Origin: Chloroflexi bacterium CFX6
Lineage (GTDB): Bacteria; Chloroflexota; Anaerolineae; Anaerolineales; Villigracilaceae
Assembly (NCBI GenBank): GCA_030263595.1
Contig: SZPG01000009.1
Coordinates: 1-64,000 of the forward strand
Length of the DNA stretch: 64,000 nucleotides
Reading direction: 5' to 3'
Notes under the pieces: model-generated
The model's input: only the letters and a program-made list of their open reading frames with translations
Databases searched by the model: none
Told to the model about the DNA's origin: nothing
Made by a program: the position numbers and the translations under genes
Part shown: positions 24,708-54,426 of the stretch, piece by piece
How the letters are laid out: the number at the start of each line of letters is the position of its first letter
Position numbering within the stretch: the stretch's first letter is position 1

Positions 24708-24710
24708 CAG

Positions 24711-24817: not shown

Positions 24818-25213
24818 ATGTTACCGACTGACGAAAAAGCCACCGTCCTCTACGTGGAAGACAACCCGGATAACCGCCTGCTTATCCGGCGTATTTTGCT
24901 TTCGGAAAATTATGGGCTGCTGGAGGCAAACGACGCGCAGGAAGCGCTCGAAGTGTTGAAGACCAACAAACCGGACCTGATCCTGATGGACATCAATATG
25001 CCTGACATGGACGGTTACACCCTGACAGCCAAGATCAAGACCACCCCCGGTTTCGAACGCATCCCCATCCTGGCGCTGACCGCGAACGTCATGCGGGGCG
25101 ACAAGGAAAAATCCCTCGAAGCCGGTTGCGATGGTTACATCCAGAAGCCGGTGGATTTCGACGAACTGTTGAGGGAGATCGAAAGATTTCTTGCAAGGAG
25201 AACCAATGCCTGA
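24818..25213 (+). CDS. Single-domain response regulator heading the sensor operon
   Basis: The 131-residue protein is a lone receiver. Its acidic residues are E14 and D15 in YVEDN, the phospho-acceptor is D58 in LILMDINMP, the switch residue is T88 and the lysine is K110 in IQKPVD. This is the DivK/CheY-like group often used as phosphorelay carriers. GGAGG precedes the ATG at 24818; an ATG at 24767 would add 17 residues. It overlaps the second receiver gene. Its likely partner is the hybrid kinase at 49513, at the far end of the same gene run. Confidence 0.9.
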   Translation: MLPTDEKATVLYVEDNPDNRLLIRRILLSENYGLLEANDAQEALEVLKTNKPDLILMDINMPDMDGYTLTAKIKTTPGFERIPILALTANVMRGDKEKSLEAGCDGYIQKPVDFDELLREIERFLARRTNA

Positions 25214-25649
25214 TAACGTTCTCGACACCCAACCCATCAAGAAACCCAATATCCCGAAGGATGCGACCGTTTTGGTGGTGGAGGACAACGTTGCGAATTT
25301 TGTGTTGATCGCGCGCATGCTCGGATATCTGGGCATCCATTGCGAGTGGAAGACGTCCGGCTATGAAGTGGTGGAATACGCCGATACGCTCCAGCGCCTC
25401 GATCTGATCCTGATGGACATTCGGCTGCCGTACGAGGACGGTTACGGCGCGCTGAAAAAGATCAGGGCATCCGAGAGACTCAAGAACATCCCCATTGTCG
25501 CCGTCACTGCGGAAGCCAGCCAGGACCAGATGACCAAGGCGCAGGAATCGGGCTTCGACGGTTTCCTCGGCAAACCGCTCGACCCCGACCGATTCCCCGA
25601 TCAAATTCGCCGCATCCTTGCGGGCGAACCGGTTTGGGAATTCAATTAA
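25206..25649 (+). CDS. Second single-domain response regulator
   Basis: The 147-residue product has a 20-residue N-terminal tail followed by a receiver. D71 in LILMDIRLP, T101 in VAVTAE and K123 in LGKPLD make up the active site. AAGGAG sits directly before the ATG at 25206, which overlaps the end of the first receiver by 8 bp. Two coupled lone receivers beside one hybrid kinase suggest a branched relay with two soluble carriers. Confidence 0.9.
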   Translation: MPDNVLDTQPIKKPNIPKDATVLVVEDNVANFVLIARMLGYLGIHCEWKTSGYEVVEYADTLQRLDLILMDIRLPYEDGYGALKKIRASERLKNIPIVAVTAEASQDQMTKAQESGFDGFLGKPLDPDRFPDQIRRILAGEPVWEFN

Positions 25650-25666
25650 CCCAGATTATCGGTACG

Positions 25667-27790
25667 ATGACCACACACCAATCGAATGGACACGGATCGC
25701 CCTTCTTTCTAACGGCATTCTTTACCGTCGTTGGAAACCGCCTGCAACTCACCCATTTTTCGGATCCGCAAAGCCGGGACGCGCAGATCACCATTCCGCG
25801 CGGAATGGAATTGATGCGGCAGGACATGGAAGCCTTCCTCAAGGACGGACCGCTGACGGTGCATCTCAAGGGCGAAACCACCATCCCGCCGCCGCTGCAC
25901 GAATATCCAAAACAACTGGGATGCGAAACAGCCGCGTATGTACCCATTCTTCAGGAAGGACAACTGCGCGGCGTTGTGTTAATTGGCGCAAGGGACGAAC
26001 AGCGCCTGGACGACGACGCCGTCGAAGCGTTCAACCGCACGATCCGCCTGACGATCAATTCGATCGTTCCCAAAACGTCCCCTACGGAACCGACCAGCGA
26101 CCGCCGCGCCGCGGAGTTGAGCGCGTTGAACGCCCTGGCTTCGACTGCCGCCTCGATCAACGATCTGCAATCCTTTTATGCGACCATTTACGAACACGTG
26201 CGGGACGTGATCGGCGACTACGGTTTCGTCATCGCCCTTTACGACCAGAAGACGAATTCCATCAGCATCCCGTTCTTATATGAAGAAGGGAGACTCTCGA
26301 ACCTCGAGGCGTTCCCTCTTGGCGAGGGCTTGACCTCCATCCTGATCCGCACGCGCCAACCGCTGATGCTCGTGGAGGATACGATGAACCGCGCCGTCGC
26401 CATGGGTGCCAAGATCGCCGGCAAACCCGCCAAGTCATGGATGGGCGTTCCGCTTCTGGCGCAGGGCGCGCCCATCGGCGCGCTCATTGCGCAGGACCTC
26501 GAGAACGAACACAGTTTCGACGAGGAAGACCTGCGTTTCCTGACTTCGGTTGCCAACCAGGTTTCGGGAGCGATCTACAACATCCGCGTATTGAACGAGA
26601 GCAGGCAGACCGCGCTCCAATTCGAAACGGCGGCGGAAATCGCCCGCGATATCAGCAGTTCGCTGAACCTGGACGAACTGCTGGAAAAAGCCGTAAGCCT
26701 GATCCGCTCCCGATTCGATTTTTATCATGCGAGCGTCTTTCTCAAGGACCCGACCGGCGAGTTCGTCGTCGTCCGCGAAGCGACCGGGGAGGCTGGCGCG
26801 CAACTCAAACGTTCCGGCTTCAAACTCGGCGTCGGGTCGAAATCCATCGTCGGCTACGTGGCAGGCAAAGGGGAGCCGTTGATCGTCAACGACACGACCC
26901 GGGACGCCACCTACTACCCGAATCCGCTTCTGCCGGATACGCGGGCGGAAGCCGCCCTCCCATTGCGCGTCGGCGACCGCATCGTCGGCGTGCTGGACGT
27001 GCAAAGCAAAAGCCCTTACGCCTTCGCGGAGGACAACCTGCGGACGCTCCAGATCCTTGCGGACCAACTGGGCATTGCCGTCGTCAACACCGAACTGTTC
27101 GCCGAAACGCAGGAACATCTCGCGCAGCACCGCCTGCTCCATCACATCACGACCACCGCCGCCTCTGGAACAACTTTGGATGAGGCGTTGGAGTCTGCGG
27201 TCAACGGCTTGCAAGTAACGCTCGGCGGCGACCGGGTCGCCATCCTGCTGGCGGACCGCGAGAAGAAGGCGCTGGAAGTAAAAGCCCAGGTGGGATACGC
27301 GCCCGATATTTACGAACTGAAAGTGCCGATCGGGAGCGGCATCACCGGCTGGGTGGCGGCGCATCGCCGCACACTGCGGGTCAACAACGTCCAGGAAGAC
27401 ATGCGCTACATCGAAGGCAGCGTCAACACGCGCTCGGAACTGGCGATCCCGTTGATCTACCGCAGCGAATTACTCGGCGTCCTCAACGTGGAGAGCGAAC
27501 AATACAACGCCTACACCGAAAGCGACGAGGAATTGCTCGGCACGCTGGGAGGCAGCCTGGCGGCGATCATAGCCAACGCCAGGTTGCTCGAACAGATCCG
27601 CGCGCAGGCTGAACGCGAGCGCCTCCTGTTCGAGATCACGGACAAGATCCGCCGAACCACCGATTTACAGACCATCCTCACCACCACCGTCAGCGAATTG
27701 ACGAAGGTGACAGGCGCAAGCCGGGTTCACATCAAACTCGGCTCGGCTGTCGAAGAGCAAAAAACGGGAACAGGCGATGACACACTTTAG
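25667..27790 (+). CDS. Soluble four-GAF sensor protein, no kinase domain
   Basis: The 707-residue product has no transmembrane helix. GAF-like domains occupy about 15-135 (degenerate), 155-310, 330-475 and 490-640. Its last 50 residues (EITDKIRRTTDLQTIL..., then GASRVHIKL) resemble only the first helix and strand of a further GAF domain. GAF domains bind small ligands such as cyclic nucleotides, tetrapyrroles or metals; no bilin-type cysteine is obvious. It is the only sensor of the run that lacks membrane anchoring and the W...GYRY segment. The ATG at 25667 has no clear ribosome site; a TTG at 25634 is possible. It overlaps the next gene by 14 bp. Confidence 0.85.
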   Translation: MTTHQSNGHGSPFFLTAFFTVVGNRLQLTHFSDPQSRDAQITIPRGMELMRQDMEAFLKDGPLTVHLKGETTIPPPLHEYPKQLGCETAAYVPILQEGQLRGVVLIGARDEQRLDDDAVEAFNRTIRLTINSIVPKTSPTEPTSDRRAAELSALNALASTAASINDLQSFYATIYEHVRDVIGDYGFVIALYDQKTNSISIPFLYEEGRLSNLEAFPLGEGLTSILIRTRQPLMLVEDTMNRAVAMGAKIAGKPAKSWMGVPLLAQGAPIGALIAQDLENEHSFDEEDLRFLTSVANQVSGAIYNIRVLNESRQTALQFETAAEIARDISSSLNLDELLEKAVSLIRSRFDFYHASVFLKDPTGEFVVVREATGEAGAQLKRSGFKLGVGSKSIVGYVAGKGEPLIVNDTTRDATYYPNPLLPDTRAEAALPLRVGDRIVGVLDVQSKSPYAFAEDNLRTLQILADQLGIAVVNTELFAETQEHLAQHRLLHHITTTAASGTTLDEALESAVNGLQVTLGGDRVAILLADREKKALEVKAQVGYAPDIYELKVPIGSGITGWVAAHRRTLRVNNVQEDMRYIEGSVNTRSELAIPLIYRSELLGVLNVESEQYNAYTESDEELLGTLGGSLAAIIANARLLEQIRAQAERERLLFEITDKIRRTTDLQTILTTTVSELTKVTGASRVHIKLGSAVEEQKTGTGDDTL

Positions 27791-29714
27791 CGAAACGCTG
27801 CTCAAGCGCACAGGCGGATGGTACATCCTCCTTTCGGTTGCCATCAGCCAGATCGTCGGACTGCTGGGAGCGATACCGGGGCTCGTCTCCATTCAACTGA
27901 ACGTCGCGCTCAGCGACGAACTCGGGCAATTGTTTCAACGCCTCGTCCCCGCGCTCTTCCTCGTCAGCCAGGCAGCCCTCCTTGTGTTTGCCTGGTATAT
28001 CACGCCCAACGCAAGGCGCCGCCTGGACGCCTGGATGAACGGGAACCTCCGCGCGGACGCGGACAGGGAATTCACAGCCTGGAAGGAGATCACCAGCCTC
28101 GTCACCCGGTACGGGATCGGCGCGATGCTCATCGCCCTCGGCGTCAACGTCCTCCCGCCGTTCATCATTGCGCTTTCTCGCAGGGAGGTTGTGACCTCCG
28201 TCTTCCAACCCTCCGCCGTCAGTTCGCCCGTTCCGATCTACATCCTTCTCGGAGGACTCGCCGCCGCGCTCGGTTCGGTCATCCTTTCGCTTTTGACTCT
28301 CGAACGCCTCACGCTACCCTCGAGGCTGATCCTGCTTCCGAGCGGCTTCGAGACTCAACTCAAAGCGCGCTCCGGCGTTCTCCTGGGCGTCAAATTCCAG
28401 ATCGTAGCGCTGGGACTCATTCTCATCGGCGTGGCGGTCATCGCGCCGATCGGCTATCAACAAACCATACGCATCCTCTATGCGGAAGTCAGTTCCATCC
28501 AGGTGTTCAGGGACCTGCAGATCCAGACGCTTCTCCTGAGTGCGCTGGCGCTCATCCTGGGCGCCGCCTTTTCCTTCTACGCCACGCGTTCCATCTCCGA
28601 ACCGGTCAACGGCCTGATCGAAACTTTTCAAAAGATCGAGAGAGGAGACCTGAAACAGCGCGTCCCCGTCACCGCGACCGATGAACTTGCCATCGTCGCC
28701 ATGCACTTCAACCGCATGGTCGCGCGGCTCGACGCATTGCAATCCACGCTGGAACAACAGGTGGCGGAACGCACCAAACAACTCACCGCAACCAACGAGG
28801 TCGGGCGGGTCGCATCCTCGATCCTCGACCCCGAACAATTGCTCGAAAGGGTCGCGAACCTCATCGGCGAACAATTCGGATATTACTACGTTGCCATCTA
28901 CCTGCTCGATCCCAGCGAAAAATGGGCGGAACTCAAGGAAGCCACCGGGCAGGCTGGCAAGGTCCTGAAACAGAACCGCCATCGCCTCGAAGTTCCCGGC
29001 AAGAGCATGGTGGCGAACTGCATCCGCGAAAAAACGCCGCGCATCGCGCAGGATACAGCCGAGGAAAAACAGAGATTCGAAAACCCGCTCCTGCCCTACA
29101 CACGCTCCGAGATCGCCTTGCCCCTGATGATCGGCGACCGCGTGATCGGGGCGTTGGACGTTCAATCCACCAAACCGGCGGATTTCGGCGCGCAGGTCAT
29201 CGAGACCATGCAGAACATGGCAAGCCAGGTCGCCATTGCGCTCGAAAACGCGCGCCTGTTCCAGGAGGCGCAGCACAGTATCAACGAACTGCGCGCCATT
29301 CAAAAACAATACCTGCTCGAAGGCTGGACCAGCATCAAATCCTATGGCGAGGATCTGGAATACGGCATCGGCGAACCTGACGAAGCCGCGGGCCAGGTCA
29401 TGGAAAGCCCCGTCAACCTCCGCAATCAAATCCTGGGGAAGATCGTCCTCGAAAGCCATACGGAGTGGACGCCGGAACAACAAAGCCTGGTGAACGCCGT
29501 CGTATCGCAAGCCGCCATCGCCCTGGAAAACGCCCGTCTCGTCTCCGAAAGCCGCCAGATCGCCCAACGCGAACGCACGCTGGCGGAGATCAACTCGAGG
29601 ATCTGGACGTCCGCCTCCATAGACGGCATCCTCCAGACCGTGGTCAAGGAACTGGGCAGAAGACTGGACACGTCGCAAACCGTGATCGAATTGAACCTGG
29701 ACGAAGAATCGTGA
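27777..29714 (+). CDS. Membrane GAF sensor with HAMP (six helices)
   Basis: The 645-residue product has six hydrophobic segments (about 15-37, 55-74, 110-132, 150-172, 203-224 and 248-270). A HAMP linker follows (about 270-322, with SEPVNGLIETFQKIERGDL), then a short coiled coil and a GAF domain (350-495). A degenerate W-containing segment lies near 515 and a GAF C-terminal half at about 540-590. The tail ends RLDTSQTVIEL. No histidine kinase, cyclase or methyl-accepting region is present. The stop overlaps the next GTG (GTGA). Confidence 0.87.
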   Translation: MTHFSETLLKRTGGWYILLSVAISQIVGLLGAIPGLVSIQLNVALSDELGQLFQRLVPALFLVSQAALLVFAWYITPNARRRLDAWMNGNLRADADREFTAWKEITSLVTRYGIGAMLIALGVNVLPPFIIALSRREVVTSVFQPSAVSSPVPIYILLGGLAAALGSVILSLLTLERLTLPSRLILLPSGFETQLKARSGVLLGVKFQIVALGLILIGVAVIAPIGYQQTIRILYAEVSSIQVFRDLQIQTLLLSALALILGAAFSFYATRSISEPVNGLIETFQKIERGDLKQRVPVTATDELAIVAMHFNRMVARLDALQSTLEQQVAERTKQLTATNEVGRVASSILDPEQLLERVANLIGEQFGYYYVAIYLLDPSEKWAELKEATGQAGKVLKQNRHRLEVPGKSMVANCIREKTPRIAQDTAEEKQRFENPLLPYTRSEIALPLMIGDRVIGALDVQSTKPADFGAQVIETMQNMASQVAIALENARLFQEAQHSINELRAIQKQYLLEGWTSIKSYGEDLEYGIGEPDEAAGQVMESPVNLRNQILGKIVLESHTEWTPEQQSLVNAVVSQAAIALENARLVSESRQIAQRERTLAEINSRIWTSASIDGILQTVVKELGRRLDTSQTVIELNLDEES

Positions 29715-31573
29715 AAGAAACCATGGAAGCAAATCCATCTCAATTTCCCACCCTGCGCACGAGGCTGGCGCTCACCCTCATCGTCCTCGCGGCGATCTTT
29801 TCCGCGGGCGTATCCTCGATCCTATACGTCAACTTTCGGCAGGAATTGAGGGAAAGCCTGCGCCGCCGCCTGGAAAACATCGCCGCCCTCGCGGGATTGC
29901 AACAGGATGGAGACGCGTTCGTAAAGGTCCAGTCGCAGGAGGATGAATACTTCCAGAAGATCCACGAGACGAACCTGAAGATAAAAACCTCCGAACCCGA
30001 TTTGAGATTCGTTTACACCATGCGAAAAGACCGGGAGGGAATTTATTTCGTCGTGGATGCCGGGCTGCCGGACGAACCGCTCATTTCCGCATTCGGCGAA
30101 CGCTACGAAGAGCCGAGCCAGACTCTCGTGGATAACTTCGACGCCATGACAGGCACGATCGTCGAAAGCGATTTCTACACGGATGAATACGGCACGTTCC
30201 TCTCGGCATACACGCCGATCTTCACCTCGGACGGGCAACGGGCGGGCGTCCTGGGAGTGGATATAACCGCCGATACCGTCCTCGCCCAGGAACGACAATA
30301 TCTGACCCGGCTGATCTTCATTTTCCTTGGCACGCTTCCCTTCCTGGTCGTGGCGGGATTCGTCTTCGCAAACTATCTGGCAAAGCCGATCGTCGTCCTG
30401 CGGAACGCGGCGCACCGGATCACGGAAGGCGATTACACCTTCAAGATCGCGGATCTCCCTCCAACCCGCGAACTGGCGGAATTGGCGGTGGATTTCAACA
30501 TCATGTCCGCCAAGTTGAACGGCCTGATCAACGAATTGGAGAATCGCGTTGCGGAACGCACAGATAGGCTATCGCGTAGGACCAGCCAGTTCCGCGCCGC
30601 CTCCTACATCGCCCGCCAGACCGCAGAGATTCAGGACATTGACAGGATCCTGTCGTCGGTCGTCAACCTCGTGACCGATCAATTCGGTTTCTATCACACC
30701 GGCATCTTTCTGATGAACGAGGCGGGCGACGAGGTTATCCTGGTGGCGGCGTCCTCCGAGGGAGGCAGGCAGATGCTCGCCAAGGGACATTCGCTTCGTG
30801 TGGGCGCGCAGGGAATTGTGGGGTACGTCGCCGCGCAGAAAAAACCACGCATCGCGCTGGACGTTGGGACTGACGCCGTTTTCTTCAACAATCCCGACCT
30901 CCCGATGACGCGCTCCGAGGTCGCCCTTCCGCTGATGGTTCGCAAAAAGGTGCTGGGCGTGCTGGACATTCAATCCGACCAACCGCAGGCGTTCAGCGCG
31001 GAGGAGATTGACGTTCTGCAAACGCTCGCCGACCAGGTGGCGGTCGCCATCGAAAGCGCACGCTTGCTGGAAGAGTCCCAGACGGCGCTCAACCAGATCG
31101 AAGCGCTGACAGCCGTCCGCACGCGCGAAGCGTGGAGTCGCAAAGTCCAGCAGGGCAGTTTCTCATACACGTACACCCCGCTCGGCATTCGCGCCGGCAA
31201 AACCTCCGAAGAAACAGACGGGGCTTTGAAGGTTCCCATCATCCTGCGCGGGCAAAAGATCGGGACCATCGCGCTGGCGCGCAAAGGCGATGCGTCCTGG
31301 AGCGAAATGGACATGGAACTGATCAACGAGGTGGCGTACCAGGCTGCCCTGGCGCTGGATAACGTGCGCCTGGTGGAGGAGGCGACGCAACGCGCCTGGC
31401 AGGAACAGACGGTGGGCGAACTCGCCGCCCGTTTCAGCCAAGCCATGGATATTGACAGCCTGCTCCAGACCGCCGCCCGTGAACTGGGTCGCATGGCGGA
31501 CGTGGCGGAGGTCTCCGTGTTCATCGGTCAGAACCCAGGGCAGGAGACGGAAAGAAGACGCGTGAGGCAATGA
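29711..31573 (+). CDS. Membrane GAF sensor with extracytoplasmic Cache-like domain and HAMP
   Basis: The 620-residue product has a transmembrane helix (18-40), an external Cache-like domain (about 41-200, with LRFVYTMRKDREGIYFVVD and TDEYGTFLSAYTPI), and a second helix (201-222). HAMP (223-275) and a coiled coil (275-300) follow. A GAF domain (305-455), the W segment near 478, a half GAF and the usual tail complete it. Cache domains bind small extracellular ligands such as amino or organic acids. GTG at 29711 overlaps the previous stop; the ATG at 29723 is an alternative. Confidence 0.85.
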   Translation: MKETMEANPSQFPTLRTRLALTLIVLAAIFSAGVSSILYVNFRQELRESLRRRLENIAALAGLQQDGDAFVKVQSQEDEYFQKIHETNLKIKTSEPDLRFVYTMRKDREGIYFVVDAGLPDEPLISAFGERYEEPSQTLVDNFDAMTGTIVESDFYTDEYGTFLSAYTPIFTSDGQRAGVLGVDITADTVLAQERQYLTRLIFIFLGTLPFLVVAGFVFANYLAKPIVVLRNAAHRITEGDYTFKIADLPPTRELAELAVDFNIMSAKLNGLINELENRVAERTDRLSRRTSQFRAASYIARQTAEIQDIDRILSSVVNLVTDQFGFYHTGIFLMNEAGDEVILVAASSEGGRQMLAKGHSLRVGAQGIVGYVAAQKKPRIALDVGTDAVFFNNPDLPMTRSEVALPLMVRKKVLGVLDIQSDQPQAFSAEEIDVLQTLADQVAVAIESARLLEESQTALNQIEALTAVRTREAWSRKVQQGSFSYTYTPLGIRAGKTSEETDGALKVPIILRGQKIGTIALARKGDASWSEMDMELINEVAYQAALALDNVRLVEEATQRAWQEQTVGELAARFSQAMDIDSLLQTAARELGRMADVAEVSVFIGQNPGQETERRRVRQ

Positions 31574-31609
31574 CCGCAGAACCCCGCATCCATCAGGTCG
31601 AAAGAAATC

Positions 31610-33760: not shown

Positions 33761-33799
33761 TCCCGATGCGGAAACAAGCGAACGGAGTCACGAACGGCG

Positions 33800-35482: not shown

Positions 35483-35488
35483 AGCCTC

Positions 35489-36922
35489 ATGCGCAGCGAG
35501 ACCGAAACGATGAAACGGCAGACTCCTCCCTCCAGGAATACCGAAGCCCGGCGTTACGCGCTGATCGGCATATTCTTTGGTTTCCTGTTCCCCGTCTGGG
35601 CGACCGTCATCAGGATCGCGAGCAACGGCAATCCCCTGAATCTGTCGAGCGTCATTTTGGCGCAAACGACAGACCCGCTGCTTTGGATCATTGACACAGC
35701 CCCGCTCTTCCTCGGCCTCTTCGCCGCCCTCGCGGGACGAAGGCAGGATATCCTCCAGAACCTGAACACGGAATTACAAAACAGGGAAAAGGAACTGAAA
35801 AACGTACAGGCGACCCTCAGGCAGCGCGTGGAGGAACGGACAGCCGCGCTGGAAGCGAGCGCCGCCCAGATCCAAAAACGCGCCTCGCAACTCGAAGCCA
35901 TCGCCCATACCGCGCGCTCCGCCGCCGTCGTCAAATCGCTGGATGAACTTCTCCCAGCCGTCGCCCAGGACATTGGTTCGCGCTTTGGCTTCTATCACGC
36001 GGGCATTTTCATGTTGGACGAAAGAAGGGAATTTGCCATCCTCAAAGCCGCAAGCAGCGAAGACGGCAAAAAAATGCTCGACAGAGGCTATCGTCTGAGA
36101 GTCGGGCAGGAAGGCGTCGTGGGTCACGTCGCCTACAGCGGAAACCCGCGCGTCGTTTCGAACGTGGGCGAAGACGCTGAATACTTCGACAACCCGGACC
36201 TCCCCGAGGCGCATTCCGAAGCCGCCCTGCCCCTCAAATTTGGCGATGAGATCATCGGCGCGCTGGACATTCAATCGAAGGAAGTAAACGCCTTCTCGCA
36301 GGAAGACCTGCGCATCTTTTCCATTCTGGCTGACCAGGTTTCGATAGCGATCCAAAACGCGCGTTCGTTCGAACAGGCGCAACGCGCCCTGTCCGAAGCC
36401 GAAGCCGCGACCAGTCAGTTGACGGGACTGGCATGGAAGGATTTCTTGGAGACCATCCGCACGAGAGGCTATCGTTACGACGGCATCAAACCGGAACCCG
36501 TAAGAAAGACCTCCAAGCCCGTCGAAAACGGGAACGCGCTGACCGTGCCGGTGCAACTGCGCGGGCAGACGATCGGACGCCTGAAACTGAAGACGCCGGA
36601 CCCCGTCCGCAAATGGACGGAGGACGAACTATCCATCATCGAAGCGACGGCGGAACGCGTTGCGCTTGCCATTGACGGCGCCCGGCTGTTGGGTGACGCT
36701 CAAAAACGCGCCGCGCGCGAAACCCTTCTCGCCGAACTGGCGGCAAAACTCGGCGCCTCCTTCCAACTGGATTCCATCCTGCGCGACACGGTGGAGGAAC
36801 TCGGCGAAGCCCTGAAAGGTTCCACGGTCACCTTTCAACTGGTCAACCCCTCCGCGCTCCCAACGACGGATAAGGACGATGGAACGGCGCGCAAAAGCAA
36901 AGACAGGAGTGAGACAGGTTAA
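35489..36922 (+). CDS. Membrane GAF sensor, two-helix minimal type
   Basis: The 477-residue product is the shortest of the series. Two transmembrane helices (about 24-45 and 67-85) lie close together. A coiled coil (88-135), a GAF domain (145-290), the W...GYRYD segment near 310-325, a half GAF (350-405) and the terminal fragment follow, with an extra polar C-terminus. It has almost no external domain, so it probably senses through the GAF domain or the membrane. It starts 6 bp after the previous stop and ends on a TAATG overlap. Confidence 0.84.
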   Translation: MRSETETMKRQTPPSRNTEARRYALIGIFFGFLFPVWATVIRIASNGNPLNLSSVILAQTTDPLLWIIDTAPLFLGLFAALAGRRQDILQNLNTELQNREKELKNVQATLRQRVEERTAALEASAAQIQKRASQLEAIAHTARSAAVVKSLDELLPAVAQDIGSRFGFYHAGIFMLDERREFAILKAASSEDGKKMLDRGYRLRVGQEGVVGHVAYSGNPRVVSNVGEDAEYFDNPDLPEAHSEAALPLKFGDEIIGALDIQSKEVNAFSQEDLRIFSILADQVSIAIQNARSFEQAQRALSEAEAATSQLTGLAWKDFLETIRTRGYRYDGIKPEPVRKTSKPVENGNALTVPVQLRGQTIGRLKLKTPDPVRKWTEDELSIIEATAERVALAIDGARLLGDAQKRAARETLLAELAAKLGASFQLDSILRDTVEELGEALKGSTVTFQLVNPSALPTTDKDDGTARKSKDRSETG

Positions 36923-43360: not shown

Positions 43361-43379
43361 GTTGAAATTGGAGTTTGAT

Positions 43380-46232: not shown

Positions 46233-48760
46233 ATCAAATGACGAGTATACCGGAAACGACAGGCATAAAACGATCACTCGCATCCCTGCGCTCGCTCCCG
46301 ATCCGAAACAGGCTGGTGGCGGGAAGCATCGCCATCGTGTTCCTGGCGATTGCGATCATGGGTGCGTTCGTCTACGTGCGGACCAGGCAGACCAACGACA
46401 ATCTTTTGCAGCGCCTGGAAACAAGCACCCGCGAGGAGGCGGAGAACGTCCTCAACTCCACTGCGGAGCGGCAGGCGGAGACCCTCTCGAATTATTTCGG
46501 ATCGTTGAGGACGAGCGCGCTTTCCCTCAGGGACTACAGCCAGAACCTGCTTGCCGACCAGCCCTCCTTTGGGACGGGCATCTATTGGGACGCGGAAGGT
46601 TCGCTTGCCCGGAACGAGAAGGGCAGTTGGGACAATTCGAATTCCGAGATCGGCTCCGTCTTCATCCCCGCCGCATCCGACCTTTCGACCGCGATGATCT
46701 CCGAACTGAACTCCCTGCGGCACATGGATCTCATCGTTCCATCCATCCTCGAGACCAACCCGGACATCATTGCCGTCTATTTCGGCGGGGCGACCGGCTT
46801 GACCCTGTATTACCCCAACATTGACCTTGCCGCCATCGTCCCTGCGGACTTCGACGTGACCGGGCGTCCCTGGTACGTGAAGGCAAACCCGGATTCGAAC
46901 CCGGACAGGGACGCGGTCTGGTCCGACCCCTACCTGGACGCGGCGTTGAATGGGATTGTCATCACGAACAGCGCCCCGGTCTATGACGCCTCCGGCAGGT
47001 TGTTGGGCGTCGTCGCACAGGACGTCCAACTGACGAAGATATCGGAGAACATCGCGAATATCCGCGTGGGCGAGACCGGCTACGCATTCCTCATTGACCG
47101 CGACAGGCGGTTGATCGCCATGCCCGATTTGGGCTACGCAGACCTGGGAATTGACCCCGAAACGATCCCGCTGGGAAGCGAACTGACGGACGACGCGCTG
47201 GGAAGCGGGGGGACGGACTTCGGCGCCATCCTGCGGGACATGGTTTCCGGCAACGCCGGATTCTCGCAGATCACTGTGAACGGCACGGAACGCTTCATCG
47301 CCTATCGCCCCGTCGAGGGCGTGAACTTCAGCCTCGCGATCCTCGTGCCTTCGCAGGAAATGCTTGCGGACGCGCTGACCGCGGAACAACAACTCGACCG
47401 CGAAAACAGCATCGTCCTGGCGATTAGCGTTTTCGTCGTGCTGGGGATCTTCGCCCTCACGTCCGTCATCACCGTCAACTTCGCAAACAACCTGCTCGCG
47501 CCGCTGGCATCCCTGACGCGCGCAGCGGAAGAGATGGCGAAGGGCGACCTGAACGCCCGCGCGGAGGTAACGGAACAAAACGAGTTTGGCAGGCTCGCAG
47601 CCACCCTGAATTCGATGGCTTCGGAATTGAAGGGGGCGATCGGCACCCTCGAATCGCGGGTTGCCGAACGAACAAAAGAGGCGCAGCAGCGCAGCCTCGA
47701 ACTGGAGAACGCGAACGAACAGATCCGCCGGCGCGCCGCGCAATTCGAGGCGCTCGCCCAGGTCGCCCGTTCCATCACATCCGTCCGTGACCTCCAGCAA
47801 CTTCTTCCGCAGGTGACGACGATGATCAGCGAGAACTATGGTTTCTATCACGTCGGCGTCTTCCTGCTCGACGAAGCGAACGAATACGCGGTGCTTGCCG
47901 CCGCCAACAGCGAAGGCGGACAAAGAATGCTCGCGCGCGGACACCGCCTGCGCGTGGGCGAAGAAGGCATCGTGGGCAACGTCGCCGCGCGCGGCGAACC
48001 CCGCATCGCCCTCGACGTGGGAAAGGACGCCGTGTTCTTCAACAACCCGGACCTGCCGGAAACGCACTCCGAAATGGCTCTGCCTCTCAAAAGCGGAGAC
48101 CGCATCATCGGCGCGCTGGACGTGCAAAGCAGGGAAACCGGCGCGTTCACGAACGAGGACGCGCAAACCCTCAGCCTCCTCGCCGACCAGGTGAGCCTCG
48201 CCATCGAGAACGCGCGGCTCTTCGAAAACTCGAACCGCGCGCTGACGGAATTGCAACTGGTCATGCGCCAGTCCACGCGGGAGGCGTGGAAGCGCCTGCC
48301 CAAACAACAAAGGCTGCTGGGATACCGCTATAACGCCATGGGCGCCTCCCCGCTCAGGGAGCCGGTCAACCTGGCGGAAACGGGCAAGGGCAGGGCAAAA
48401 GCCCGGGTCGCCGAATCAGGTTCCGTCGTGGTCCCGATCGAATTGCGCGGCGAGGTCATCGGCAATCTGGTCGTCCAATCCCCGGGCGGGAGCGGCAAAT
48501 GGAACGAGGATCAATTGGACCTCATCCGGGCGGTTGCCGAACGTGTGGCGCTCTCGGCGGAGAACGCGCGCTTGTTCGAGGAAACGACCCTGCGCGCCGA
48601 ACGCGAGCGGCTCGTCTCCGAGATCACCGGCAAGATCAGGAGTCATACCGACCCGCAAGCCATGATCGAAACAGCCCTCAACGAACTGCGGGACGCGCTG
48701 GGCGCCAGCCGGGTGGAGATCGTCCCGCGCAAGAGCGACGGCAAAGGATCGGAGGCGTAA
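46229..48760 (+). CDS. Membrane dCache-HAMP-GAF sensor
   Basis: The 843-residue product has a helix at 26-48, a double-Cache domain (about 60-385), a return helix (about 395-417) and HAMP with AKGDLNARAEVTEQNEFG. The Cache part includes FDVTGRPWYVKA, VWSDPYLD and GETGYAFLIDRDRRLIAMP. A coiled coil, a GAF domain (520-660), the W...GYRYN segment, a half GAF and the tail ending GASRVEIVP follow. The Cache motifs are the clearest of the series and resemble those of amino-acid chemoreceptors. GTG at 46229 overlaps the previous stop. Directly downstream is the ParA gene. Confidence 0.86.
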   Translation: MNQMTSIPETTGIKRSLASLRSLPIRNRLVAGSIAIVFLAIAIMGAFVYVRTRQTNDNLLQRLETSTREEAENVLNSTAERQAETLSNYFGSLRTSALSLRDYSQNLLADQPSFGTGIYWDAEGSLARNEKGSWDNSNSEIGSVFIPAASDLSTAMISELNSLRHMDLIVPSILETNPDIIAVYFGGATGLTLYYPNIDLAAIVPADFDVTGRPWYVKANPDSNPDRDAVWSDPYLDAALNGIVITNSAPVYDASGRLLGVVAQDVQLTKISENIANIRVGETGYAFLIDRDRRLIAMPDLGYADLGIDPETIPLGSELTDDALGSGGTDFGAILRDMVSGNAGFSQITVNGTERFIAYRPVEGVNFSLAILVPSQEMLADALTAEQQLDRENSIVLAISVFVVLGIFALTSVITVNFANNLLAPLASLTRAAEEMAKGDLNARAEVTEQNEFGRLAATLNSMASELKGAIGTLESRVAERTKEAQQRSLELENANEQIRRRAAQFEALAQVARSITSVRDLQQLLPQVTTMISENYGFYHVGVFLLDEANEYAVLAAANSEGGQRMLARGHRLRVGEEGIVGNVAARGEPRIALDVGKDAVFFNNPDLPETHSEMALPLKSGDRIIGALDVQSRETGAFTNEDAQTLSLLADQVSLAIENARLFENSNRALTELQLVMRQSTREAWKRLPKQQRLLGYRYNAMGASPLREPVNLAETGKGRAKARVAESGSVVVPIELRGEVIGNLVVQSPGGSGKWNEDQLDLIRAVAERVALSAENARLFEETTLRAERERLVSEITGKIRSHTDPQAMIETALNELRDALGASRVEIVPRKSDGKGSEA

Positions 48761-48761
48761 C

Positions 48762-49547
48762 GTGGCATACATTATCGCGATGTCGAATGAAAAAGGCGGC
48801 GTGGCAAAGACCACCTCCACGCTCTCGTTGGGAGCCGCGCTCGCCGAATTGAATTACCGCGTGCTGCTGGTGGACCTCGACCCGCAGGCGAATCTTTCGC
48901 TTGCCCTCGGTCTCGAAGCGGAGGAGGCGAGCGTTTCATCCGCGAATGTATTGATTGAGAACGCCGGGATCAAGACCGCCATCCGCAAATCCGAGGTCCC
49001 GAACCTGGACATCGTTCCCTCCAGTTTTCGCATCGAGAACGCGGAACAGTTCCTGCCCATGCGGACCCATTACCTGACCACGCTTCGCGACGCCCTCGAG
49101 GCTGATTCGCTTCCCTACGACTACATCCTGCTCGATTGCCCTCCCGCCCTCGGGGCGATCACGCTGAACGCGCTCGCCGCGGCGGACCTGCTCATCATCC
49201 CCACGCAGGCGGAATACTTCTCCGCCTATGCGTTGAGGAACATGATGGGCACCATCCGCCGCATCCGGCAGGACGTAAACCCCGGCCTCGCCTACCGCAT
49301 CCTCGTCACGCTGCTCGACCGCCGCAATCGGACGCACCGCAACATCTTCGAGCAATTACAAGCCACGTTCGGGCAGGGCGTGTTTACGACGGTCATCGAG
49401 ATAGACACCAAATTGCGGGAAAGCCCCATCGCCGGAGTGCCGATCACATTTTACAAACCGAACAGCCGCGGCTCGCAACAGTATCGCGTCCTTGCCCAGG
49501 AGTTGATCGAATATGCCAAAGAAGAAGCCAATCGCCAAACGGCTTGA
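48762..49547 (+). CDS. ParA/Soj-type ATPase within the sensor operon
   Basis: The 261-residue product is a ParA-family ATPase. Its deviant Walker A is KGGVAKTTS, Walker A' is LVDLDPQANLS and Walker B is ILLDCPPALG. Family members form ATP-dependent dimers on DNA and position plasmids, chromosomes or protein clusters. No parB or centromere is near. Relatives that sit in chemosensory operons place receptor arrays, so positioning the sensor-kinase assembly is the attractive reading, but it is inference. The gene starts with GTG one base after the last sensor and overlaps the kinase gene by 35 bp. Confidence 0.9.
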   Translation: MAYIIAMSNEKGGVAKTTSTLSLGAALAELNYRVLLVDLDPQANLSLALGLEAEEASVSSANVLIENAGIKTAIRKSEVPNLDIVPSSFRIENAEQFLPMRTHYLTTLRDALEADSLPYDYILLDCPPALGAITLNALAAADLLIIPTQAEYFSAYALRNMMGTIRRIRQDVNPGLAYRILVTLLDRRNRTHRNIFEQLQATFGQGVFTTVIEIDTKLRESPIAGVPITFYKPNSRGSQQYRVLAQELIEYAKEEANRQTA

Positions 49548-52500
49548 CAAACTGTTCGACGATATCAAACACGAGGAACCGAGCGCGACGCCGGCTGCGG
49601 GCGTTCCCAAACGCGCGCCGGAGGAAAGAGCCCGCGCGGTCGAAACGAAAGCCGCTCCCCGACGCGCCCGCGCGCTCGAGCCGACCAAGCCCCTCTCCCA
49701 GACCGAGACCGTCCTGGCTCTGGAATTCCAGATCGCCCCCGACACCTGGGTAACGCTTCAGGCGCTGGACGAAACGAACCAGCGGAACTGGACGGACGAG
49801 GATCAACTGCTCGTGCGGCAGGTCACCGACCAACTCACGCTCGCGCTCGAAAACGCGCGTTTGTTCCAGGAGACCCAACGGTCCGAATCGGAATTGCGCG
49901 CCCTGTTCGCGTCCATGAACGACGTGATCATCGTATACGACAAGGATGGACGATACGTTCGCATTGCGCCGACCAACCCCTCCCTGCTCATACGTCCGCC
50001 CACCGAAATGGTCGGAAAAAACATAAGGGATATCCTTCCGCCCGAACTGCACAAGCAGTTCATGGACGTGATCCGCGAGGCGCTGCGCGGCGACACCATC
50101 GTCAAGACCGAATACCTGCTCAACCTCGAAGGGAACGACATCTGGTTCGACGCGAACGTTTCGAAACTCAGCGACGACCAGGTGTTCTGGGTGGCGCGCG
50201 ACATCACCGACCGAAAGGCGCACGAACTGACGCAAGCCGCCATTACGCAGATCTCCGAGAGCGCCCTCACGTCGAACACGGTCGAGGAACTGTTCCAGAC
50301 CGTCCATGCGGCGATCCAGGAAATATTGCCCGCCCGTAATTTTTACGTGGCGTTCTACGACCGGGCGGCGAACCTGATCACCTTCCCCTATTACGCCGAC
50401 GAGTTCGACACCGATTGGGCGCCGCGCAAATTGGGCAGAGGGTTGACCTCCTACGTCATCCGCTCCGGCAAACGGTTGCGCGCCACGCCGGAGATATTTG
50501 CCGATCTCGAAGCCGCAGGCGAGATCGTCTCGAGCGGAGTCCGCAGCGTGGATTGGCTCGGGGTTCCGCTGAAAAGCGAAGGGGGAGTCCGAGGCGTTAT
50601 GGCGGTGCAGACGTACGATACGACCGCACGCATCACGGAGAGTCACGCCGAGAACTTCGAATTGATCGTCGCGCAAACCGCCGCCGCGCTCGAACGCATG
50701 CAAGCCAGGGAAGCCGTGGAACGGCGCAACACGTATCTCGCCGCATCCGCGGAGATCGGGCGACTCGTCACCTCCACGCTCGACCTGAACACGATCTTCA
50801 CCCGCGCCGTCAACCTGGTCGGCGACAGGCTGGGGTTCTACTTCGCCTCGATCTATCAGATGGACGAGGACGGCTTCCATGCCGTTTTGCGCGAAGGCAC
50901 CGGCGGGGCGGGCGAAGTTATGAAACTCCAAAAACACAGGGTCCTGGTCGGTTCGCAGACCATCGTGGGAAAGGCGGCGGAAAGCGGGGAGACCGTCCTC
51001 GCCAACGACGTAAGACACGAACCGCTTCACCAGCCCAACCCGCTCCTGCTCGATACGCAATCCGAGGTCGCCATTCCCTTGAAGGTGGGCGGCAAGATCC
51101 TGGGCGTGCTGGATATCCAATCCACGCAGGAACACGCCTTCACCCCCGACGTCGTCTCCGTGCTGCAATCGCTCGCGGACCAGATCGCGGTCGCCATCAA
51201 CAACGCCGCGCTCTTCGCCGAATCGCAGGAACTCATCACGAGCCTCAAGGAGGTGGACCAACTCAAGAGTCAGTTCCTGGCGAACATGAGCCACGAACTG
51301 CGGACGCCTTTGAACTCCATCATCGGTTTTTCGCGCGTCATCCTGAAGGGCATTGATGGACCCATCACCGACATGCAGCAGCAGGACCTGACCGCCATCT
51401 ACAATTCGGGTCAACACCTGCTCGGCTTGATCAACGATATCCTCGACCTGGCGCGCATCGAAGCCGGAAAGATGGAACTCAAATTCGAGGAAGTCCACCT
51501 GTCCGAGATGATCCATAGCGTGTTCTCCACCGCCAAGGGACTCGTCAAGGAAAAACCGATCCAACTGATCGAGATGGTTCCGCCGGACATGCCCACCATT
51601 CGCGGCGACACGATGCGCGTCCGCCAGGTGCTGCTCAACCTGATCTCCAATGCGGCGAAGTTCACGGAGGAGGGTTCGATCACCGTCGAGACGCGCGTCC
51701 AAAAAGCGCCCAATGGAAAACTGGAGGCGCTCATCAACGTCACGGACACGGGTCCCGGCATTTCGCTGGAGGGACAGGAGAAACTCTTCAAGGCGTTCTC
51801 GCAGGTGGACGGCTCCGCCACGCGCAAGACCGGCGGTTCGGGTCTGGGTCTTTCCATTTGCGCGAACCTCGTGCAACTGCACGGGGGGCGCATCGGCGTC
51901 ACGAGCGAGGAAGGCAAAGGCTCCACCTTCTGGTTTACGATGCCGCTCTTCCACCAGCCCGTCGAGGAGATTCCCCCCGGCAAGAAGATCGTCCTCGCCA
52001 TTGATGACGACCCGCAGGTCATCAACCTGTACGAGCGTTACCTCAACCCGCAGGGCTATCACGTCGTTCCGCTCACGGAACCCTCGAGGGCAAAGGAACG
52101 GATCAAGGAACTTCGCCCCTTCGCCGTGACGCTCGACATCATGATGCCCAACGTGGACGGATGGACGGTTCTCACCGACGTCAAATCTGATCCCGCCACC
52201 CGGGACACCCCCGTCATCATCTGCTCCATCGTCGAACAGACCGACAAGGGCTTCAACCTCGGCGCGACGGATTACCTCGTCAAACCCATCATCGAGGAGG
52301 ATCTCGTCAACGCGCTGGAACGCCTGAATAAAAACGGGAACATCCACACTGTGATGGTGATTGACGACGATCCCAATGACCTGCGCCTCATCGAAAAGAT
52401 CCTGAAGGAACACGGCAAATACAAGACCGTCCTTGCCGACGGGGGGCGCAAAGGCTGGGAATACATCAACGCCAGTCCGCCCGACGCGATCCTGCTCGAT

Positions 52501-52725
52501 ATCTTCATGCCCGAAATGGACGGCTTTTCGATCCTGGAAAAACTGCGCGAAGACCGCGACCTGAGGGAGATACCCGTCCTGGTGGTCAGCGGCGGCGGTT
52601 TGACCAACGAACAGCAAAAGCAGCTTGCCGAATACGGACAAAGGTTGATCTTCAAGGGCTCCCTCGACGAAAACGACCTGATCGAAAGCATCGAGAACGC
52701 GCTCAAACGCATCGGCGACCAATAA
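49513..52725 (+). CDS. Hybrid histidine kinase with split-GAF N-terminus and two receivers
   Basis: The 1070-residue protein is the only kinase of the run. After a basic, disordered start (1-60) comes the C-terminal part of a GAF domain (67-122, with NWTDEDQLLVRQ and ALENARLF). A PAS domain (125-235) and two full GAF domains (about 250-400 and 425-570) follow. Then come HisKA with H594 in SHELRTPLN and HATPase_c with N-, G1- (DTGPGIS) and G2-type boxes (GGSGLGLS). Two receivers complete it: D875 in TLDIMMP and D996 in LLDIFMPE. No membrane helix is present, so membrane signals must reach it from partner proteins. Confidence 0.93.
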   Translation: MPKKKPIAKRLDKLFDDIKHEEPSATPAAGVPKRAPEERARAVETKAAPRRARALEPTKPLSQTETVLALEFQIAPDTWVTLQALDETNQRNWTDEDQLLVRQVTDQLTLALENARLFQETQRSESELRALFASMNDVIIVYDKDGRYVRIAPTNPSLLIRPPTEMVGKNIRDILPPELHKQFMDVIREALRGDTIVKTEYLLNLEGNDIWFDANVSKLSDDQVFWVARDITDRKAHELTQAAITQISESALTSNTVEELFQTVHAAIQEILPARNFYVAFYDRAANLITFPYYADEFDTDWAPRKLGRGLTSYVIRSGKRLRATPEIFADLEAAGEIVSSGVRSVDWLGVPLKSEGGVRGVMAVQTYDTTARITESHAENFELIVAQTAAALERMQAREAVERRNTYLAASAEIGRLVTSTLDLNTIFTRAVNLVGDRLGFYFASIYQMDEDGFHAVLREGTGGAGEVMKLQKHRVLVGSQTIVGKAAESGETVLANDVRHEPLHQPNPLLLDTQSEVAIPLKVGGKILGVLDIQSTQEHAFTPDVVSVLQSLADQIAVAINNAALFAESQELITSLKEVDQLKSQFLANMSHELRTPLNSIIGFSRVILKGIDGPITDMQQQDLTAIYNSGQHLLGLINDILDLARIEAGKMELKFEEVHLSEMIHSVFSTAKGLVKEKPIQLIEMVPPDMPTIRGDTMRVRQVLLNLISNAAKFTEEGSITVETRVQKAPNGKLEALINVTDTGPGISLEGQEKLFKAFSQVDGSATRKTGGSGLGLSICANLVQLHGGRIGVTSEEGKGSTFWFTMPLFHQPVEEIPPGKKIVLAIDDDPQVINLYERYLNPQGYHVVPLTEPSRAKERIKELRPFAVTLDIMMPNVDGWTVLTDVKSDPATRDTPVIICSIVEQTDKGFNLGATDYLVKPIIEEDLVNALERLNKNGNIHTVMVIDDDPNDLRLIEKILKEHGKYKTVLADGGRKGWEYINASPPDAILLDIFMPEMDGFSILEKLREDRDLREIPVLVVSGGGLTNEQQKQLAEYGQRLIFKGSLDENDLIESIENALKRIGDQ

Positions 52726-52749
52726 CCCAACAAGGAAAAGAATACTTTT

Positions 52750-54426
52750 ATGTCATTCGTAATCCGATGTCTCGATTGCGGCAATACCGCGCCGTTCACG
52801 CCCAGTTCCATGCAATGCCCCAATTGCTCGAGCCAGTGGCGCGAAGCGGAATACGACATGCAGGAGGTCGCGAAGACTTTTCCCTCGCAACTCAAGAACC
52901 GCGAGTTCGACTTGTGGCGTTACCGCGAACTCCTGCCCATTCATAATCCAAATCCCAGCCTGAGGCTTGGGGAAGGCGGAACCCCCCTCATCAAAGCCGT
53001 GAACCTGGGCATGATGCTGGGACTCAACAACCTGTATATCAAGGACGAACGCCAGGGACCGACCTCCTCCTTCAAGGACCGGCAGGCGGCGCTGACGATC
53101 GCCGCGCTCAAGGAGGGCGGCATCACCGAGATGGTCGCCGCATCCACCGGGAACGTCGCCATTTCGCTTTCGGCGTACGCGGCTCGGGCGGGGATCAAAC
53201 TCTGGGCGTTCGTCACCAGCCTCGTTCCGGGGGTCAAGATGCGTGAGATCGCCTTGTACGGGAGTCAGGTGGTCAAGATCACAGGTTCCTACGACGAGGC
53301 GAAGATCATGGCGGCGGAGTTTGCGCGTCAACGCGGCTTGTACCAGGACATGGGCGCGCGGACCGTCACCGCGGTCGAAGCCATGAAGACGCTGGCGTTC
53401 GAGATCGCCGAACAATTGACCCTGCAAAACGGCGCGCCGCCCGGCTCCGCCGAGGAGCATCCCAAATGGCGGACGCCCGATTGGTACGTTCAATCCATCA
53501 GCGGCGGATTGGGCCCGCTCGGCGTGTACAAGGGCTTCCGCGAATTGAAGGCGCTCGGGCTGATTGACCGCATCCCCGCCATTGCGCCCATCCAGGTGGA
53601 CGGATGCGCGCCGATGGTGACGAGTTGGAGGAGGGGTCTCGAAAAAGCCGAACCGGTGCTTACCCCGAAGACGCGCATCGAAACGCTGGCGACCGGCGAC
53701 CCCGGGCGCTCCTACACGATGCTCCGCCGGCAGGTCAACGAAACCGGCGGCGTCTTCGATAGCGTATCGGATGAAGAGTCGTTTCGCGCCATGCACGTTT
53801 TGGCAAAACTGGAGGGCATCTCCGCGGAGCCGGCCTCCGCTACGGCGTTTGCGGGTCTTTTCAAACTGGTGCGCGCCGGGGTCATCAAACCGAACGACGT
53901 GGTGGTCGTCAATTGCACGGGACACACTCTGCCGGCGGAACAATTCCTCTTCGGCGAAGGCTGGACGCGCGACATTGACCTGCGGGAGAGGAAGGCGGGA
54001 GTCGAAACGCCGCAGGAGGGACTCCTCTCCGCCCTGAACAATGTGACCCCGAACCGCTTCTCGCGCGTGGTTGTGGTTGACGATACCTCCGAGGCGCGTC
54101 GTCTCATCCGACGCATTTTGCAATCGCAGGGAGATTTCGAGATCTTCGAAGCCGCGAGCGGACGCGAAGCCATCGAACTGATCAGCCGCGAACTGCCCGA
54201 CATCGTGATTCTCGACCTGATGATGCCCGAAGTGGACGGTTTCGCCGTGCTGGACGCATTACGAAGCAAACCCGAAACGGCGAACATCCCCGTCATTGTC
54301 GCCACCGCCAAGGAACTGACCGTGGACGAGAAGAGCCGCCTCCAGGGACAGATCCAATCGCTCATGCTGAAGGGGGATTTTCTGAACGACGAATTCCTGG
54401 AGGAAGTCCGTTCGTTGATAAAATGA
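52750..54426 (+). CDS. Threonine synthase-like PLP enzyme fused to a receiver domain
   Basis: The 558-residue product joins an enzyme and a signalling domain. An N-terminal zinc ribbon (CLDC near 8-11, CPNC near 23-26) precedes a fold-type II PLP domain with K109 in TSSFKDR, the STGNVAISL phosphate site, and GGLGPLGVYKGF. This matches bacterial threonine synthase, which turns O-phosphohomoserine into threonine; related PLP synthases are possible. From about 437 a receiver follows, with acidic pocket VVDDTS, phospho-acceptor D489 in VILDLMMPE, T in VATAKEL and K in MLKGD. AAGGAAAAG lies before the ATG. Confidence 0.9.
   Translation: MSFVIRCLDCGNTAPFTPSSMQCPNCSSQWREAEYDMQEVAKTFPSQLKNREFDLWRYRELLPIHNPNPSLRLGEGGTPLIKAVNLGMMLGLNNLYIKDERQGPTSSFKDRQAALTIAALKEGGITEMVAASTGNVAISLSAYAARAGIKLWAFVTSLVPGVKMREIALYGSQVVKITGSYDEAKIMAAEFARQRGLYQDMGARTVTAVEAMKTLAFEIAEQLTLQNGAPPGSAEEHPKWRTPDWYVQSISGGLGPLGVYKGFRELKALGLIDRIPAIAPIQVDGCAPMVTSWRRGLEKAEPVLTPKTRIETLATGDPGRSYTMLRRQVNETGGVFDSVSDEESFRAMHVLAKLEGISAEPASATAFAGLFKLVRAGVIKPNDVVVVNCTGHTLPAEQFLFGEGWTRDIDLRERKAGVETPQEGLLSALNNVTPNRFSRVVVVDDTSEARRLIRRILQSQGDFEIFEAASGREAIELISRELPDIVILDLMMPEVDGFAVLDALRSKPETANIPVIVATAKELTVDEKSRLQGQIQSLMLKGDFLNDEFLEEVRSLIK

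Follow-up and report, generated by a model that had tools for sequence, protein, structure and literature searches.

We begin by considering a run of 16 genes on contig SZPG01000009.1 of Chloroflexi bacterium CFX6, an uncultured member of the Anaerolineales (assembly GCA_030263595.1), located at 24818-54426 of the 64,000 nucleotides (nt) that were analysed (positions 1 to 64,000 of the forward strand, called the window below). The genes encode two receivers, 11 kinase-less GAF proteins (one soluble and ten in the membrane), a ParA-type ATPase, a hybrid histidine kinase that we call the hub, and a threonine-synthase-like enzyme fused to a receiver. All 16 lie on the plus strand with intergenic gaps of -35 to +39 nt for the chosen starts, several of them 4-nt overlaps, and a scan of the window finds no plus-strand terminator-like site in the array's intergenic gaps, the plus-strand matches between REC1 and the enzyme being all intragenic. 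An earlier reading of the same DNA, made without database searches (the sequence-only reading), had described this co-directional packing with overlaps and short gaps, and its observation is confirmed; to be corrected are the first two genes, which are lone receivers, and the end of the run, where an EamA transporter follows as a 17th co-directional gene. Besides this transporter, it had overlooked a common tail of the sensors, a helix and a partial GAF domain at the kinase N-terminus, and a paralogous second array in relatives. The features are listed here; the rows for S03 to S13 are based on Pfam, a tail profile search and hydropathy, and the start of S03 is probably the ATG at 25667.

24818..25213, plus strand: REC1, single-domain receiver (Pfam, E-value 2.7e-29; sequence)
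25206..25649, plus strand: REC2, single-domain receiver (Pfam)
25667..27790, plus strand: S03, soluble multi-GAF sensor; half-GAF tail 27584-27751
27777..29714, plus strand: S04, membrane sensor, HAMP-GAF; tail 29538-29708
29711..31573, plus strand: S05, membrane sensor, HAMP-GAF-GAF; tail 31370-31537
31610..33760, plus strand: S06, membrane sensor; tail 33596-33757
33800..35482, plus strand: S07, membrane sensor; tail 35306-35479
35489..36922, plus strand: S08, membrane sensor, two helices; tail 36686-36853
36922..38670, plus strand: S09, membrane sensor; tail 38494-38664
38667..41648, plus strand: S10, membrane sensor, dCache_1 and HAMP; tail 41472-41642
41645..43360, plus strand: S11, membrane sensor, six helices; tail 43169-43339; AlphaFold model m80c2987c587d
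43380..46232, plus strand: S12, membrane sensor, HAMP, dCache_1 just under the cut-off; tail 46056-46223
46229..48760, plus strand: S13, membrane sensor, dCache_1, HAMP; tail 48572-48739
48762..49547, plus strand: ParA-type ATPase with deviant Walker A motif KGGVAKT (Pfam, sequence, ortholog searches)
49513..52725, plus strand: hub hybrid histidine kinase (Pfam, alignment, AlphaFold)
49513..49569, plus strand: conserved N-terminal helix motif of the kinase, residues 1-19, MPKKKPIAKRLDKLFDDIK (alignment, profile)
49711..49896, plus strand: half-GAF of the kinase, residues 67-128 (hhalign, AlphaFold, order-wide comparison)
52750..54426, plus strand: threonine-synthase-like pyridoxal phosphate (PLP) enzyme with zinc ribbon and C-terminal receiver (Pfam, family and structure comparisons)
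54504..55448, plus strand: EamA-family transporter, 77 nt downstream of the enzyme (Pfam, synteny)

The 11 sensors all contain GAF domains (Pfam, E<=0.01), and at the same threshold none has a kinase, GGDEF/EAL, phosphatase or methyl-accepting domain, so that the earlier statement that they lack a kinase, cyclase or methyl-accepting output is upheld with 0 of 11 carrying an output domain. HAMP is found in S04, S05, S10, S12 and S13 (Pfam), and dCache_1 exceeds its curated cut-off in S10 and S13 and falls just under it in S12 (44.2 against 45 bits). According to hydropathy, S03 has no membrane segment and the other ten have 2-7; the claim that ten of the 11 are membrane-bound stands, and the upper end of the claimed range of 2-9 helices is not reproduced.

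All 11 sensors of the window end in the same 45-residue piece, the tail. Across 43 genomes it is present in 280 of 285 complete sensors, at a median distance of 8 residues from the C-terminus (this count and the sensor and kinase counts per fetched stretch below refer to plus-strand reading frames only); three of the five misses (G609, G543, G512) show the tail by eye below the threshold, and the other two (G038, G548) have long Pro/Gly-rich extensions. Is this piece peculiar to the arrays? The tail profile was searched against seven whole genomes, four with an array and three without. Strong matches (E<=5.6e-13) number 11 in G000, 10 in G058, 12 in G008 and 10 in G063, the last of which made no contribution to the profile. 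All 43 lie inside arrays, and in each of the four genomes their number equals the array's sensor count, one per sensor. The remaining matches in the seven genomes all have E>=1.5e-5; the array-less G003 and G360 give no match and G097 gives two weak ones.

By profile comparison, the tail is the first helix and the first strand of a GAF domain. The trimmed tail matches the opening part of GAF1 at 86% with a score of 28.5, against at most 13.7 for 30 shuffled controls; untrimmed, it had first matched the wrong end of GAF1 because the preceding helix was still included. None of three isolated tails tried is recognised as GAF by Pfam. The S11 model from AlphaFold contains the tail helix (residues 536-550), with a block pLDDT (predicted local distance difference test) of 70, and has the residues of the following strand as coil (52). 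Apart from its tail, this model shows a tandem-GAF sensor, and the solved structures nearest to it are those of phytochromes and GAF domains.

We turn our attention to the hub kinase, which consists of an N-terminal helix, a linker, a half-GAF, PAS and GAF domains, HisKA, HATPase_c and two receivers. The HisKA, HATPase_c and receiver domains of a two-component hybrid kinase are thus all present (Pfam) and a membrane segment is absent (hydropathy), in agreement with the one cytosolic kinase without a membrane helix that the sequence-only reading had noted. To compare its N-terminus, we use two sets of relatives: a family set of 21 genomes (the window and 20 chosen by the enzyme; neighbourhoods of 32-40 kb), and 22 contexts of the wider order, taken from the 47 matches outside the family that a ParA search gave (E<=1e-70; 64 matching genomes out of 151). 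Each of the 21 family genomes has a hub starting with M-basic-R-L/I-x-x-L/I-F-x-x-I/V/L/M, followed by a Pro/Ala-rich stretch and the half-GAF; in one of them (G025) the hub is split from the kinase. The half-GAF comprises a pair of strands and the first portion of a long helix, without the first helix and first strand of the fold, and matches the closing half of GAF1 at 97% with a score of 64.6, where 20 controls reach at most 15.3 (hhalign). Alignment finds it in 21 of 21 family hubs, and it recurs in 20 of 22 hubs of the wider order (E<=6.5e-13; G527 is weak and G599 is cut short), where a PAS domain often stands between the helix and the half-GAF and the first GAF helix is, by eye, again absent. 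AlphaFold gives the kinase a low-confidence helix at residues 8-14, disorder at 18-60, strands at 67-75 and 78-85 and a helix at 95-135, with block pLDDT of 64-86 over residues 67-135. The isolated half-GAF is not recognised as GAF by Pfam, and a Foldseek search with the kinase N-terminal model is dominated by the PAS domain and uninformative on the half-GAF.

Combining these observations, we propose that the operon encodes a multi-input signalling array: the sensor tails would dock on a single kinase, ParA would position the resulting complex and the PLP enzyme would be under the control of the kinase. We assign this reading a probability of roughly 60%. Eleven sensors with differing input modules would share a cytosolic GAF-GAF cassette ending in an orphan GAF helix and strand, and these tails would dock on the hub, most likely on its N-terminal half-GAF, where exactly the tail-type elements of a GAF domain are absent. 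Since the hub is single, all inputs would converge on it. The hub would phosphorylate its own receivers as well as REC1, REC2 and the enzyme-fused receiver. The PLP enzyme would yield an amino-acid-like product, possibly a substrate of the EamA transporter, and ParA would most likely position or segregate the assembly through contact with the N-terminal helix of the kinase.

The idea that tail and half-GAF are the two halves of one split GAF domain was rejected as ancestry, with docking retained. A natural fusion of sensor and kinase joined at tail and half-GAF was found neither in L114, L115 and L117 nor, later, in G395 (the source of L112), in a search that spanned six class-level loci of which the minus-strand L113 and L116 were never read on the right strand.

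The same anatomy allows for a heterodimer, in which the helical GAF-GAF spine of a sensor lies alongside the kinase's GAF/PAS spine in the manner of parallel sensor dimers. The tail and half-GAF would then be cut ends only, left from a once continuous protein, with no specific lock-and-key role. The kinase of G409b starts with an S11-type membrane module (E 8e-24) and that of G622 does so more weakly (2e-5), so that relatives' kinases carry a sensor-type module; tail and half-GAF are both GAF-derived; AlphaFold gives long continuous helices; and hub reading frames without a kinase core (the first part in G025, and G602) end in a tail-like piece. All of this suits the heterodimer. Cut ends should erode, however, and yet nearly every complete sensor in the count above retains the tail near its very end, and the four array genomes hold no tail of comparable strength outside their arrays. 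We consider the heterodimer unlikely.

The next question is whether the array exists in other genomes. The enzyme with its receiver (PALP-receiver) is present in 101 of 120 family genomes (E<=1e-60), 97 having the first type and 51 a paralogous type of 46-48% identity, and conservation of this kind excludes chance. In the 21 family genomes, ParA and the PALP-receiver enzyme occur in 21, and EamA, REC1 and REC2 in 20 each (the receivers are missed in G025, where the stretch begins inside the array). The complete sensors number 6-13 per array, and there is exactly one kinase per fetched stretch in all 21. In the wider order, where the contexts were picked by ParA so that its presence is not independent evidence, all 22 have tail-type sensors upstream of ParA and a hub reading frame starting at the ParA end, with at least 2-6 complete sensors per context. 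A kinase core is found in 13 of these stretches, the PALP-receiver in 10 and EamA in 8; five of the nine stretches without a kinase core end inside the hub reading frame (G517, G494, G599, G499, G609). A further set of 80 named loci, nearly all titled as Chloroflexi or Anaerolineales metagenome-assembled genomes and one as Blastopirellula marina, has, where the flank permits, ParA in 58 of 59, the kinase in 59 of 59, EamA in 73 of 74, sensors upstream of ParA in 62 of 62 and the helix, by a loose pattern, in 65 of 67; the records mention groundwater, lakes and sediments. Synteny in relatives, which the sequence-only reading had named as the check to make and whose absence from all of them would have refuted it, is therefore kept both within the family and within the order, and it recurs in a single genome beyond the order (G358, one of 20 class/phylum contexts).

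In some arrays, orphan substrate-binding lipoproteins are encoded between the sensor genes, with none in the window. One of them (L048:6215-7183, plus strand, in G037) is NMT1-like by Pfam, and those of G014, G011, G082, G013 and G025 are, by eye, binding proteins of NMT1-like or other families.

Two further explanations can be judged against this conservation. One is that the sensor genes multiplied in tandem by neutral processes and serve no joint function, which would fit the way input modules differ among relatives (many BLAST matches are limited to the cassette). The flanking order, the tails and 2-13 sensors are nevertheless kept across genera and families, and we find such an expansion scarcely credible. 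The other is that the sensors act directly on receivers, enzyme or ParA, or on kinases elsewhere, their co-location serving shared expression. In its favour, the contact between sensor and kinase in our proposal is something we infer, and weak GAF-type tail matches elsewhere in the genome indicate that other GAF proteins exist. Against it, strong tails are confined to arrays, the family arrays have one kinase each, and the single hub stays the same whether an array has 6 sensors or as many as 13. We consider this explanation very unlikely. The convergence on one kinase that the sequence-only reading had suggested is partly supported in this way, by the single kinase in 21 of 21 stretches, the tail confined to arrays in four genomes and the sensor-type module on relatives' kinases.

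What could ParA do in such an array? Its sequence matches the deviant Walker A pattern KGGxxK[S/T], a motif of ParA/MinD ATPases tabulated in PMC9178275. It is distinct from the chromosomal ParA, to which it is 36% identical and which adjoins ParB on contig C54. The kinase gene begins before the ParA gene ends, with an overlap of 35 nt in the window and of 22-49 nt in the 22 order contexts (taking the start nearest to the expected overlap). The N-terminal helix of the kinase is found by profile in 42 of 44 hubs directly downstream of ParA. When the 43 hubs that built the profile are scored with it, 41 reach 20-47, and the highest score among 477 other proteins is 7.0; G358, which lies outside both the order and the profile, has ParA and the helix with a score of 20.9. 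Among class/phylum relatives, 13 kinases come from fetched stretches in which ParA is missing, and all 13 lack the helix (best score -5.6); eight of them have at least two membrane segments. This count, drawn from the 20 class/phylum contexts, leaves out four contexts in which the enzyme is not immediately preceded by a kinase (G129, G377, G349a and G465) and one whose kinase runs off the contig (G128); a 1387-residue reading frame of G173 was scored and has neither helix nor kinase match, so that 13 kinases are counted and not 14 reading frames. As a comparison, the N-terminus of the kinase had been considered a ParB homologue, MPKKKPIAKRLDKLF resembling the host ParB MPKRSGLGKGLDAL by eye, and this was dropped on profile score. 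According to PMC7993993, basic N-terminal peptides are the usual activators of ParA/MinD. The activators PomX and ParB resemble the hub in having a short basic N-terminal peptide followed by an Ala/Pro-rich stretch; the peptide here sits on a histidine kinase, unlike in those proteins, and is not ParB-like by profile score.

A second, paralogous array is present in 51 of the 120 family genomes. It contains tail sensors, a kinase, a PALP-receiver enzyme 44-48% identical to the first type, a receiver and often another PALP protein. In the nine loci that were read (L149-L153, L183-L186), 18 open reading frames end in the tail, and an adjacent array-type ParA is found in G077 only, directly downstream of the receiver. 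Five of the seven readable kinase starts exceed every background helix score and two (p014, p078) do not; p041 and q077 have no readable kinase start. An array-type ParA exists somewhere in six of the nine genomes (62-80% identity), and it was not found in G103, G104 and G072, drafts of 88-96% completeness that have a type of 38-39% identity only. The four array genomes of the whole-genome tail search have one enzyme match each and no second array. In G038, we see two first-type enzymes (73% and 65% identity; C69 and C7:31624-33285), possibly belonging to two full arrays.

Several observations weigh against the proposed array. Kinship among the genomes inflates all of the counts given above. 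The hub reading frame ends without a kinase core in G602, G547, G590 and G584, and in G527 no PALP-receiver follows the kinase; the branch of G602 seems to split the kinase, because its hub lacks a kinase domain and ends in a tail-like piece. (The gene after this hub is a FIST-domain protein, L163:17112-18257 on the plus strand, followed by a PAS protein.) When the target is the GAF1 profile in full length, the trimmed tail reaches no more than 25%. What the half-GAF resembles is the end of GAF1/GAF2, and the tail corresponds to the beginning of a further GAF, so the two need not be halves of one ancestral domain. In G622, six tail sensors occur with a kinase that is membrane-bound and lacks the special N-terminus; a half-GAF is thus not a constant counterpart of the tail. 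Since the sensors of second arrays carry the tail too, its presence by itself does not point to one particular kinase in genomes with two arrays. With respect to ParA, the helix persists in second arrays mostly without an adjacent ParA, including the three genomes in which no array-type ParA was found; it is missing in two ParA-bearing arrays, G548 and G510; and its profile gives 21 ParB N-termini a mean of -11.4 against a background of -12.1 (22 loci were tried, L138 having no ParB start by pattern, and five weaker ParB loci stayed untried).

These last points, the persistence of the helix, its two losses and its lack of likeness to ParB, favour a view in which ParA and the kinase helix are unrelated, the helix serving a partner common to both array types (e.g., the enzyme or a receiver) and ParA positioning something else. 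It is opposed by the absence of the helix from all 13 ParA-less kinases while G358 has both, by the overlap between ParA stop and kinase start, and by the usual role of basic N-terminal peptides as ParA/MinD activators (PMC7993993). We rate the unrelated view as a serious contender, somewhat short of an even chance. Because second arrays mostly keep the helix without an adjacent ParA, the proposed link between ParA and the helix, drawn from sequence comparison, is suggestive only.

The output of the array would pass through the PLP enzyme. Its zinc cysteines (7, 10, 23, 26) and PLP lysine (109), as well as the receiver aspartates 445 and 489 and lysine 541, are kept in 13 of 13 sequences. It is like threonine synthase in being a PLP enzyme with an SFKDR lysine, and its nearest solved relatives are threonine synthases. 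It is unlike them in its fused receiver and in falling under the curated cut-offs for threonine synthase (NF006050, 247.9 of 303 bits; TIGR00260, 145 of 167.1 bits). A housekeeping role as threonine synthase was rejected, since a proper copy exists elsewhere in the genome (594.5 bits). At E<=1e-100, the enzyme has matches in 146 of 396 Anaerolineae genomes and in 42 of 400 genomes of a phylum sample, and the best matches listed in both searches span the enzyme and the receiver domains; plasmids give no match at E<=1e-60. The simplest contexts (G710 and G859, same genus) have a 1877-residue membrane kinase, the enzyme and a receiver, and the membrane part of this type of kinase resembles S12-type sensors (E 4e-12). 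These sequences point to a likely path in which kinase and enzyme came first and kinase-less tail sensors were added; as a likely last step, the kinase would have lost its own membrane part and gained the helix and ParA. The order is drawn from few contexts and not from a tree.

The upstream border of the array and its hairpin are given here.

24636..24708, plus strand: tRNA-Gly(CCC), upstream border of the array (ARAGORN)
24710-24739: terminator-like hairpin directly after tRNA-Gly(CCC) (terminator scan)

A 61-bp perfect repeat of the tRNA-Gly(CCC) sequence, at 15360 and 24634 of the window, flanks about 9.3 kb (15360-24694) with phage-type integrases at 15447-16346 and 16781-17716 and a Prim-Pol protein at 21187-22722; this segment, which immediately precedes the array, is probably an integrated element. 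Between the last long reading frame of the element and the tRNA lies a tandem repeat (23932-24045; 34-bp unit, 3.4 copies, 98% matches). An FG-GAP repeat protein is encoded downstream of the array (61894-63039, minus strand). A tRNA-Arg reported by ARAGORN at 48580-48670 (minus strand) is taken as false, being situated inside S13.

How does this array compare with known systems? In chemoreceptor arrays, many receptors with differing inputs share one common cytosolic part and act on one kinase. Unlike arrays of methyl-accepting chemotaxis proteins, CheW and CheA, the present one has no methyl-accepting signalling domain in its 11 sensors and no CheW domain in its 16 genes (Pfam); its kinase is HisKA-HATPase_c-REC-REC and not a CheA with Hpt and CheW-like domains; and in place of the flagellar switch of chemotaxis, the conserved partner here is a receiver-bearing PLP enzyme. 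The stressosome (RsbR paralogues and RsbT) is another case where sensors with variable N-termini and a common C-terminal module converge on one kinase; here the sensors lack a STAS domain (Pfam), the kinase belongs to the HisKA and not the RsbT type, and ten of 11 sensors are membrane proteins. A ParA-like gene in the operon is a feature of positioned chemoreceptor arrays also (Vibrio ParC/ParP, Rhodobacter PpfA/TlpT; PMC5706961 and PMC6829392), and the former paper has the N-terminus of TlpT in contact with PpfA. The logic akin to chemoreceptor arrays, built from GAF domains, that the sequence-only reading had suggested is closest to that of the ParC/PpfA arrays, whose defining domains are absent here. 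In GacS/RetS/LadS multikinase networks (PMC5992135, PMC4866733), several sensors likewise act on one hybrid kinase; the extra sensors there are kinases, and none of ours is. Among open papers (most subscription papers not being covered), we found neither this operon nor kinase-less GAF arrays nor a threonine-synthase-like enzyme fused to a receiver described, and the earlier remark that no system of this composition had been described agrees with this open literature.

To our knowledge, chemotaxis provides most of the known receptor arrays that pool many inputs on a single kinase. It is possible, though we hold it doubtful, that the present array is a separate kind outside chemotaxis, in which interchangeable receptors without a kinase would each plug a GAF fragment into a half-GAF socket on a mobile, ParA-positioned kinase and a receiver-gated PLP enzyme would make an exported amino-acid-like signal. 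If true, it would be a second array design in a large and mostly uncultured group, from which one could learn which features arrays need (a common receptor tail, one hub, spatial control), and it would offer a scheme found in nature by which new sensors could be plugged into a single kinase. A metabolic enzyme, and not a transcription factor, is the conserved neighbour and the likely two-component target in many Anaerolineae.

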